Shown here piece after piece: positions 10,164 through 11,700 of a stretch of DNA of 64,000 bases. The notes under the pieces are model-generated. The model did not search any database. It was not told where the DNA came from and was given only the letters and a program-made list of their open reading frames with translations. This stretch comes from Methanomassiliicoccales archaeon. GTDB lineage: Archaea; Thermoplasmatota; Thermoplasmata; Methanomassiliicoccales; JACIVX01. The position numbers and the translations under genes are program-made. Position 1 is the stretch's first letter, and each line of letters opens with the position of its first letter. The stretch covers positions 1 to 64,000 of the forward strand of contig JARYLV010000004.1 of the NCBI GenBank assembly GCA_029907465.1. Reading direction: 5' to 3'.

Positions 10164-10485
10164 TAACGCTGATTCCTAGGATCGATCATTGTTATCGTCA
10201 TAACCAGCCAACGGGCATTTGACACTGAATATATGGTTACTGATGGGGGAAATTGCTGTTTGAGAACTTCTCAACAAACGATTGTAGATATTTTCTTATT
10301 TGTACTATCTCTTATTATTTGAACTAAGGTTTCCCGGCGGATACCATCTGCTGATTCCAACAATGTAATGCTTATTTGTCTCACGAAAATAATCTGGGAA
10401 GAAATCATAAGCTGGAATCGCAGAGATTCGCATGCGAGATATCGGTCATCGGAAGGGATTTGGCATTTGAGGAGAACCGCATAGC
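10164..10485. other. Intergenic stretch between DUF5611-like gene and L3 promoter
   Basis: No convincing gene was seen. A perfect inverted repeat TTGAGAAcTTCTCAA (10259-10273) resembles a protein-binding palindrome. The rest is AT-rich with no recognisable RNA gene. Confidence 0.4.
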
Positions 10486-10494
10486 TTAAATATA
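10486..10494 (+). promoter_or_regulatory. TATA box of the L3 ribosomal superoperon
   Basis: TTAAATATA at 10486-10494 is a good archaeal TATA element. With the usual 24-28 nt spacing, transcription would start near 10513-10518, exactly where the folded leader begins. This leaves an unusually long 5' leader of about 180 nt before the L3 start. Confidence 0.5.
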
Positions 10495-10512
10495 GATATC
10501 CTTATGCAAGAA

Positions 10513-10683
10513 ATCGCTGAATGCGATAAGGACGTTCGACCAGACACTTTGGGCAATGCAATGAGCATCCCTGATTCGCACCCTATGTCTATTCTGGGTG
10601 AAGAATATGGTGTCACGGTCGAAGGTGCGATAGTCGCGATCATGTAGAAAAGTGTAGCATAGAGAGTGGCTTCTCTCAATGCT
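10513..10683 (+). promoter_or_regulatory. Structured 5' leader RNA upstream of L3, candidate cis-regulator
   Basis: Several nested complementary segments are visible by eye. A small hairpin pairs ATCGC 10513-10517 with GCGAT 10523-10527. A closing helix pairs TTCGACC 10535-10541 with GGTCGAA 10617-10623 and continues after a small bulge as GACAC 10543-10547 with GTGTC 10610-10614. Inside it, hairpin GGG-CA-ATGC (10551-10559) pairs with GCAT-CCC (10565-10571), and CACCC 10579-10583 pairs with GGGTG 10596-10600, giving a three-way junction. Downstream, AGCAT-A-GAGAG (10656-10666) pairs with CTCTC-A-ATGCT (10673-10683). It ends 15 nt before the L3 start, so an autoregulatory ribosomal-protein leader is the likeliest role. 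This is inferred from pairing only. A 47-codon ORF (10504-10647) overlaps it. Confidence 0.55.
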
Positions 10684-10698
10684 GGAAGAGGGAGAATC

Positions 10699-11700
10699 AT
10701 GCCAAACAAAAGACGTCCTATTCGAGGTTCGAAGGCATTTTCGCCGAGAAAGAGAGCGAAGCGTCCAGTTCCAAGACTTGACTCCTGGCCGGAAATTAGC
10801 GACGGCCCTAAAATCCAGGGATTTGCGGGATATAAGGCCGGTATGACACACGCGCTCCTAGTGGATTATAGGCCGTCAAGTAACACCTCGGGTCAGGAGG
10901 TGCAGGTTCCTATCACTGTTATTGAGGTTCCCCCGATGAAAGTTGCAGCCGTTAGGATGTATGAGAACACTGCTTACGGAATGCGAACAGTGGGTGAGGT
11001 TTGGGCTTCAAATCTTGACCCCGACTTGAATCGGAGACTTCCAATTCCGAAAGACTATGATTCAAACAAGGCCTGGGAAAAGTACAATGCGGTCACGGTC
11101 GATGATGTGCGGATCTTGGCCTATACGCAGCCACGCCTCGTCAGCGGTGTTCCTAAGAAAGTTTGCGACCTAATGGAGATTCGCGTCGGTGGCGGAACAA
11201 TCCAGGAAAGACTTGAGTATGCAAAGTCCGTTTTAGGGAAGGAGATCAAGATCACTGATTTTGTAAAAGAGGGCGGAATGGTCGACGTTTCCGCGATTAC
11301 GAAGGGCAAGGGGTTCCAGGGCGCTGTCAAACGATGGGGGATCAAACTTCTATCGCACAAAAACAGTAAGCATCGGAGACTTGTTGGGACTTTAGGACCC
11401 AAGAGACCAGGGTACGTGAGGCCCACCGTCCCTCAGGCCGGACAGGTCGGCTACCACCAGAGGACGGAATTCAATAAGAGAGTTCTCAAAATCGGGGACA
11501 ATGGAACTGATATCACGCCCAAGGGTGGATTTCTACATTACGGAAAAGTTGCTAACACTTATATTCTTCTTCACGGCACGGTTCCTGGACCAGCAAAACG
11601 ACTTATCAGATTAAGGGACCCGATTCGGCCAACCGGTATTGAACTAAAAGAGCCTCCAACGCTCACTTACATATCGTTGGAATCAAAGCAGGGGGTGTGA
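10699..11700 (+). CDS. rpl3: 50S ribosomal protein L3 (uL3)
   Basis: A 333-residue archaeal L3, beginning PNKRRPIRGSKAFSPRKR, the conserved N-terminus that sets the start at ATG 10699. The core motif KGKGFQGAVKRWG and the basic stretch HRRLVGTLGPKRPGYVRPTVPQ, near the peptidyl-transferase centre, are intact. The ribosome binding region is GAAGAGGGAG. This is the first gene of the superoperon; S10 and EF-1alpha are not adjacent. Confidence 0.97.
   Translation: MPNKRRPIRGSKAFSPRKRAKRPVPRLDSWPEISDGPKIQGFAGYKAGMTHALLVDYRPSSNTSGQEVQVPITVIEVPPMKVAAVRMYENTAYGMRTVGEVWASNLDPDLNRRLPIPKDYDSNKAWEKYNAVTVDDVRILAYTQPRLVSGVPKKVCDLMEIRVGGGTIQERLEYAKSVLGKEIKITDFVKEGGMVDVSAITKGKGFQGAVKRWGIKLLSHKNSKHRRLVGTLGPKRPGYVRPTVPQAGQVGYHQRTEFNKRVLKIGDNGTDITPKGGFLHYGKVANTYILLHGTVPGPAKRLIRLRDPIRPTGIELKEPPTLTYISLESKQGV

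Follow-up and report, generated by a model that had tools for sequence, protein, structure and literature searches.

The gene for ribosomal protein L3 opens an L3-L4-L23-L2 operon in this archaeon of the Methanomassiliicoccales and is separated from the gene before it by a gap of about 535 nt, raising the question of what this gap holds and whether it bears on the expression of the operon. We analyzed it in the window (the whole stretch of DNA under study, 64,000 nt, on contig C4 of a 1.72 Mb source genome in 44 contigs) and by comparison with related genomes. L3 has a DUF5611 and a radical SAM gene as its upstream neighbors and is followed by L4, L23 and L2 in this order. The product of the gene directly preceding L3 (9843-10163) is a DUF5611 protein of unknown function. 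Within the gap, a TATA-like element is found 49-57 nt 5' of a CCAGAC motif in 56 of the 57 order members scored, and the usual archaeal spacing would place the transcript start at about 10510-10518. A start downstream of 10656, which would have spoken against the reading in the earlier note on this DNA, is therefore unlikely. The features of the leader are collected in Table 1.

Table 1. Coordinates of the L3 leader and adjoining features in the window
Feature	Position	Strand	Basis or remark
TATA-like promoter element CTTAAATATA	10485-10494	+	Sequence; spacing to CCAGAC in order members
Possible outer helix P0, 5' strand GCUGAAUGC	10516-10524	+	Candidate partner GUGUAGC 10652-10658; pairing weak in the window's genome
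Conserved core RNA, R1/R2 match	10530-10626	+	R1 E 1.1e-17; R2 E 2.5e-14
GGACGU	10530-10535	+	Just 5' of P1; complementary to ACGUCC 10713-10718
P1, 5' strand UUCGACC	10535-10541	+	Pairs with 10617-10623; covariation significant at 4/7 pairs
Unpaired A of the 1x2 internal loop	10542	+	Opposite A10615-C10616; invariant in the 46-sequence order alignment
P2, 5' strand GACACU	10543-10548	+	Pairs with 10609-10614
P3 hairpin GGG-CAA-UGC-AAUGA-GCA-U-CCC	10551-10571	+	Conserved CAA / W internal loop
P4 hairpin	10574-10606	+	Sequence and length variable
P2, 3' strand GGUGUC	10609-10614	+	Covariation, with and without structure-aware alignment
P1, 3' strand GGUCGAA	10617-10623	+	Alignment, covariation, ensemble fold
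Possible P0, 3' strand GUGUAGC	10652-10658	+	Complementarity; tentative
P5 hairpin adjoining the Shine-Dalgarno sequence	10656-10683	+	Inner GAGAG/CUCUC 10662-10666/10673-10677; outer AGCAU/AUGCU
Shine-Dalgarno-like GAGGGAG	10688-10694	+	Sequence; inference
L3 (ribosomal protein)	10699-11700	+	First gene of the L3-L4-L23-L2 operon; PF00297 E 1.2e-89
ACGUCC in L3 codons Arg5-Arg6-Pro7	10713-10718	+	Conserved synonymous sites

A conserved three-way junction upstream of L3

All pairings named in the earlier note are present in the sequence at the coordinates it gives, and the leader folds well as a whole. The segment 10513-10698 reaches -63.7 kcal/mol (z -2.9) and is more stable than 199 of 200 dinucleotide shuffles, while for 10486-10699 z is -3.2 and none of the 200 shuffles folds better. 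Ensemble pair probabilities, computed with 40 nt of L3 included, are 0.99-1.0 at the inner pairs of the closing helix (10537-10541/10617-10621 and 10543-10547/10610-10614) and 0.2-0.63 at its outer two pairs. An Rfam search of the window's leader matched no family. For comparative work we used two covariance models, R1, built on sequences of the window's order, and a refined version, R2; the core RNA is the sole match to either in the window's genome.

Within the order, L3 was located in 58 of 61 genomes, and the core RNA stands ahead of it in all 58. The DNA 5' of L3 is recognizably related across six families, with the core consensus CGACC-A-GACGC-NNN-GGG-CAA-UGC-NNNN-GCA-W-CCC-(P4 hairpin)-GCGUC-AC-GGUCG. 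When 46 distinct order sequences were aligned with MAFFT (A1), 14 pairs showed changes in both partners. Covariation scored 0.226 on this alignment; shuffles gave 0.124, and no slid structure exceeded 0.119.

The same core reaches far beyond the order. At E <= 1, R1 matched 176 of 293 Thermoplasmatota genomes, and at E <= 0.5, R2 matched 224 of 293, in both cases nearly always in single copy. An L3 reading frame lies directly 3' of 59 of the 60 divergent hits fetched, and the remaining hit is at a contig end. One genome (G271) has two copies of the element, on contigs C20 (L156) and C89 (L155), with L3 in view beside one of them.

Order sequences and divergent hits were combined in an alignment of 100 sequences fitted to the covariance model (A2), in which 91.9% of paired cells are able to pair and the covariation score is 0.526, compared with 0.154 for shuffled and at most 0.106 for slid structures. 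Significance was assessed with a purpose-written test modelled on R-scape, and distinct from it, which uses an APC-corrected G statistic and a null in which parsimony substitutions are redistributed along a FastTree tree. At E < 0.05, 15 of the 26 pairs were significant, and no pair off the structure was. Because A2 had been fitted to the model, we reran the test on a structure-blind MAFFT alignment; five pairs, in P1, P2 and P3, were significant, again with none outside the structure. The stems thus persist and covary in relatives, which was the check that the earlier note had proposed.

Individual helices differ in how they vary. Across families, pair 1 of P2 is G-C, U-A or A-U and pair 4 is G-C, A-U or U-A, and both also covary significantly under structure-blind alignment. 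P3 keeps an invariant GG/CC, its UGC/GCA being exchanged for UGU/ACA or UUC/GAA, and model pair 29-36 within it is significant with and without structure-aware alignment. The P4 segment forms a hairpin in all 46 order sequences despite wide sequence variation; all eight of its model pairs are significant, solely with structure-aware alignment, as the segment is not alignable structure-blind. The closing helix, together with both hairpins inside it and the 1x2 loop (A10542 / A10615 C10616), is kept through the phylum, A10542 being retained in the phylum alignment as well. What the earlier note had drawn as a closing helix (10535-10541/10617-10623 and 10543-10547/10610-10614) around two hairpins is accordingly a phylum-wide conserved, covarying RNA, and the note's reading of the leader as a fold built on a three-way junction and associated with the L3 operon is supported.

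The element mostly lies 20-110 nt before L3. Within families the spacing varies little: the L3 AUG lies 83-92 nt from the 3' internal loop in nearly all members of families f1, f3, f4 and f6, 26-33 nt from it in f8 (Aciduliprofundum-like) and 20-27 nt from it in f9, where P1 leads almost directly into a Shine-Dalgarno sequence, GGUGAU. Judged by sequence, the element combines two of the features that mark the r-leader class, a covarying conserved structure and a constant 5' UTR position before ribosomal-protein genes. Among the 293 genomes, family f7 and some other Thermoplasmatota gave no R2 match, so that the element appears dispensable in some lineages; two Thermoplasmata loci (L208, L210) reached E 2 at best even in an unfiltered search. 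Lineages with no detectable leader before L3 (L208, L210, f7) suggest loss or replacement. Searches of 80 named archaeal L3 loci, gathered by a protein-motif pattern, with R1 and R2 under default filters gave matches in Thermoplasmatota only, a named Methanomethylophilaceae locus (L252) being among the strongest. Under these filters the element was also not found in 36 whole genomes beyond this phylum, a single match at E 0.92 lying in an unrelated place.

Flanking parts of the leader

Outside the core, conservation is more local. The 5' hairpin (10513-10527) and the 3' stem (10656-10683) described in the earlier note are both present, with ensemble probabilities of about 0.7 and 0.97, respectively, but the 5' hairpin and the outer part of the 3' stem are local to close relatives. 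In this stem, P5, the inner GAGAG/CUCUC is widely kept in the order, whereas AGCAU/AUGCU is confined to close relatives; family f2 has another hairpin in its place, GCGAGG...CCUCGC. The switch suggested by pairing of ATCGC (10513-10517) with GCGAT (10627-10631) was rejected, as this pairing has an ensemble probability of 0.00; it is also not conserved.

Two further pairings are suggestive only. In most order members outside f2, GCUNAACGC, near the expected 5' end, is complementary to GCGUUAGC, before P5, which would form an outer helix, P0. When partners were swapped between species the exchanged duplexes were equally stable, so this test gave no covariation signal for P0, and the helix is tentative. 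The other pairing would join GGACGU, just 5' of P1, to ACGUCC within L3, with a pair probability of 0.74-0.95 in the window and 0-0.99 among relatives, some of which alone give it a high value. Arg6 of L3 is CGU in 38 of 38 order members outside f2; CGU accounts for 5.9% of the remaining Arg codons in these genes. Family f2 retains CGU/CGC, with a preference for CGU, although it is devoid of the GGACGU partner and, given also the spread of fold probabilities (0-0.99), pairing between leader and L3 codons is only one possible cause of this codon choice. The synonymous sites of GACGUCC in L3 codons 5-7 (10711-10719) are near-invariant across the order, f2 included.

A 47-codon open reading frame overlapping the leader, for which the earlier note had considered conservation at the codon level, was rejected as a coding gene: it shows no such conservation, stops and frame changes break it in most relatives, and it has no Pfam match.

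RF03135 and the possible ancestry of the element

An 'L4' leader upstream of rplC-rplD-rplW-rplB in Archaeoglobi has been reported and rated borderline (Eckert and Weinberg 2020, PMC7247131); its Rfam entry is RF03135. The statement in the earlier note that no leader of an L3-first operon had been described is thus corrected by RF03135, which shares the architecture found here. Both RNAs are associated with the L3-L4-L23-L2 operon and lie upstream of it, both have the helix order P1, 1x2-type loop, P2 and three-way junction, and in both P3 begins with GGG and P4 is variable. RF03135, however, lies in frame inside a PF02598 methyltransferase gene, several hundred nucleotides before L3, whereas the Thermoplasmatota element is a non-coding 5' UTR. 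At its gathering score, the RF03135 model matched neither the window nor any of 40 Thermoplasmatota relatives tested.

RF03135 matched Archaeoglobi, Halobacteria (10/10), Methanosaeta/Methanothrix (3/3) and two further Halobacteriota-type MAGs, and in every Archaeoglobi or Halobacteria copy read it was in frame within the PF02598 RNA-methyltransferase gene; examples from Archaeoglobi/Halobacteria loci are L231:2243-2330, L246:3712-3802 and L248:6429-6513. With ten of ten Halobacteria and three of three Methanotrichaceae, the family is far wider than its name implies. Its Halobacterial form has a P3 (GGG-UCAA-UUGC...GCAA-CA-CCC) close to that of Thermoplasmatota (GGG-CAA-UGC/GCA-W-CCC). Several synonymous choices within it are invariant in Halobacteria: one Asn codon is AAU in 10 of 10, a codon used for 12 of the 38 other Asn residues of these genes, and the final Arg is always AGG. 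These invariant choices support selection acting on the RNA.

The relation to the Archaeoglobi is visible in unfiltered searches only. In a run of R2 with filters off over 25 Archaeoglobi loci (75 kb), the 13 top-scoring matches (11.7-20.5 bits) all fell on RF03135, in register. In-register matches of 8.6-20.5 bits were found at RF03135 in 18 of the 25 loci, corresponding to 18 of 23 among the matches listed. These matches are individually weak (best E 0.011), and the evidence is their agreement of place and register. At the RF03135 site of three named Archaeoglobi loci, R2 scored 19.2, 11.6 and 2.6 bits. None of the Halobacterial copies of RF03135 was detected with R2.

Common descent of the two RNAs would be the simplest reading, the alternative being convergence on the same protein-binding shape. 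Our judgement is evenly divided on a fuller scenario, in which a regulatory RNA of the L3 operon predates the split of Thermoplasmatota and Halobacteriota, lies inside the PF02598 coding sequence in Halobacteria, Archaeoglobi and Methanotrichaceae, and stands alone as a 5' UTR in Thermoplasmatota, perhaps extending into the first L3 codons. If so, identical nucleotides encode both protein and RNA in the former three groups, and in Thermoplasmatota the upstream PF02598 gene has gone from the site and the RNA survives.

Proposed function of the leader and comparison with known systems

We consider it likely that the leader is an ancient cis-acting, protein-binding mRNA element, an autoregulatory r-leader of the L3-L4-L23-L2 operon acting on translation initiation; both the regulation and the ligand are what we infer from the comparisons above. 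This is the simplest reading because the element is single-copy, has invariant unpaired nucleotides and accompanies one ribosomal-protein operon across the phylum. The L3 operon itself probably encodes the ligand; L4 would be the favorite, by analogy with bacterial S10-operon control and the assignment of RF03135, with L3, L23 and L2 also candidates. Operon protein in excess over rRNA would bind the P1/P2 loop and the P3 region and stabilize the element, and 30S loading would be blocked. In Thermoplasma-type families the Shine-Dalgarno sequence nearly follows P1 and the core loop is 20-27 nt from the AUG, which is why direct occlusion is possible there, and a block of initiation is structurally plausible wherever P1 abuts the Shine-Dalgarno sequence. 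For the window's order, the repression step is speculative: the signal might be transmitted through the longer linker and hairpin P5, perhaps with pairing of GGACGU to L3 codons 5-7. The element appears to represent, in Thermoplasmatota, an older archaeal RNA that in Halobacteriota takes the form of RF03135.

Other explanations account for part of these data. A structured 5' UTR could act without any ligand or protein response, shielding an abundant mRNA from decay or aiding 30S recruitment, and this would agree with the location at the 5' end and with the outcome of our searches for an rRNA mimic: word and motif searches gave nothing convincing, and R2 reached at best E 0.5 on four 23S loci, although a purely three-dimensional mimic would escape such a search. 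We regard this reading as rather unlikely, since the unpaired A / AC loop and the P3 CAA are invariant phylum-wide in the manner of a binding site, the L3 operon is the sole carrier of the element, and the RF03135 form lies within a coding sequence and not at a 5' end. Invariant loop nucleotides within a complex three-way junction are also reminiscent of an aptamer, and the element could bind a small molecule, like a riboswitch, or another factor such as the general RNA-binding protein L7Ae. Riboswitches usually control several genes, whereas this element is single-copy and always found with L3, and it matches no Rfam riboswitch. For L7Ae, the conserved loops in the alignment (A / AC and CAA / W) do not on inspection fit a kink-turn, that is, a 3-nt bulge followed by tandem sheared G-A pairs, and this motif was rejected. 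A ligand of either sort thus seems distinctly improbable.

The link to PF02598 raises a different possibility, namely that the RNA is a functionless relic of that coding region, retained after the gene was lost. A frame in the window reads VRPD...GVTVEG, near the VGPDG...RVTVRV of PF02598, and the Archaeoglobi element occupies exactly that place in the gene. The frame is, however, broken in most relatives, and the base pairs are conserved and covary; it is therefore the RNA that is kept now. As an account of present function we hold the relic to be very unlikely, and as an account of origin it is open. Finally, the TATA-like element and the compact fold would also suit a free-standing small RNA transcribed from its own promoter beside L3, but the distance to the L3 start is short and constrained and P1 abuts the Shine-Dalgarno sequence in some families, leaving this reading scarcely credible.

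An autoregulatory r-leader would probably let the cell match its ribosomal-protein output to need. Archaeal r-protein leaders have rarely been described; the one known for the L3 operon, RF03135, carries a borderline rating and lies within coding sequence, which makes its covariation difficult to interpret. That a non-coding relative with strong covariation is kept through most of another phylum, Thermoplasmatota, shows that selection acts on the RNA itself. The element is compact, at about 95 nt, and feedback control of a major archaeal r-protein operon could be tested on it; it may also be a case of one regulatory RNA found both within and outside coding sequence.

A search of the open-access literature, with most subscription journals outside its reach, returned no paper describing a Thermoplasmatota L3 leader. 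Structured archaeal leaders of S15 and eL15 have been found by comparative genomics (PMC7247131). These precede other operons, have other structures and resemble rRNA, whereas the L3 leader does not detectably do so. The L1 operon of Methanococcus vannielii is similar to the L3 operon in its r-protein feedback, as proposed here. In M. vannielii, this archaeal feedback acts on translation, L1 binding a site near the L1 start that mimics rRNA; no mimic was found in the L3 leader. In the Escherichia coli S10 operon, feedback by an operon-encoded protein works through the L4 leader. This leader has another fold and belongs to another domain of life, and the archaeal element has no Rfam match; yet, like the element described here, it precedes an operon encoding L3, L4, L23 and L2.
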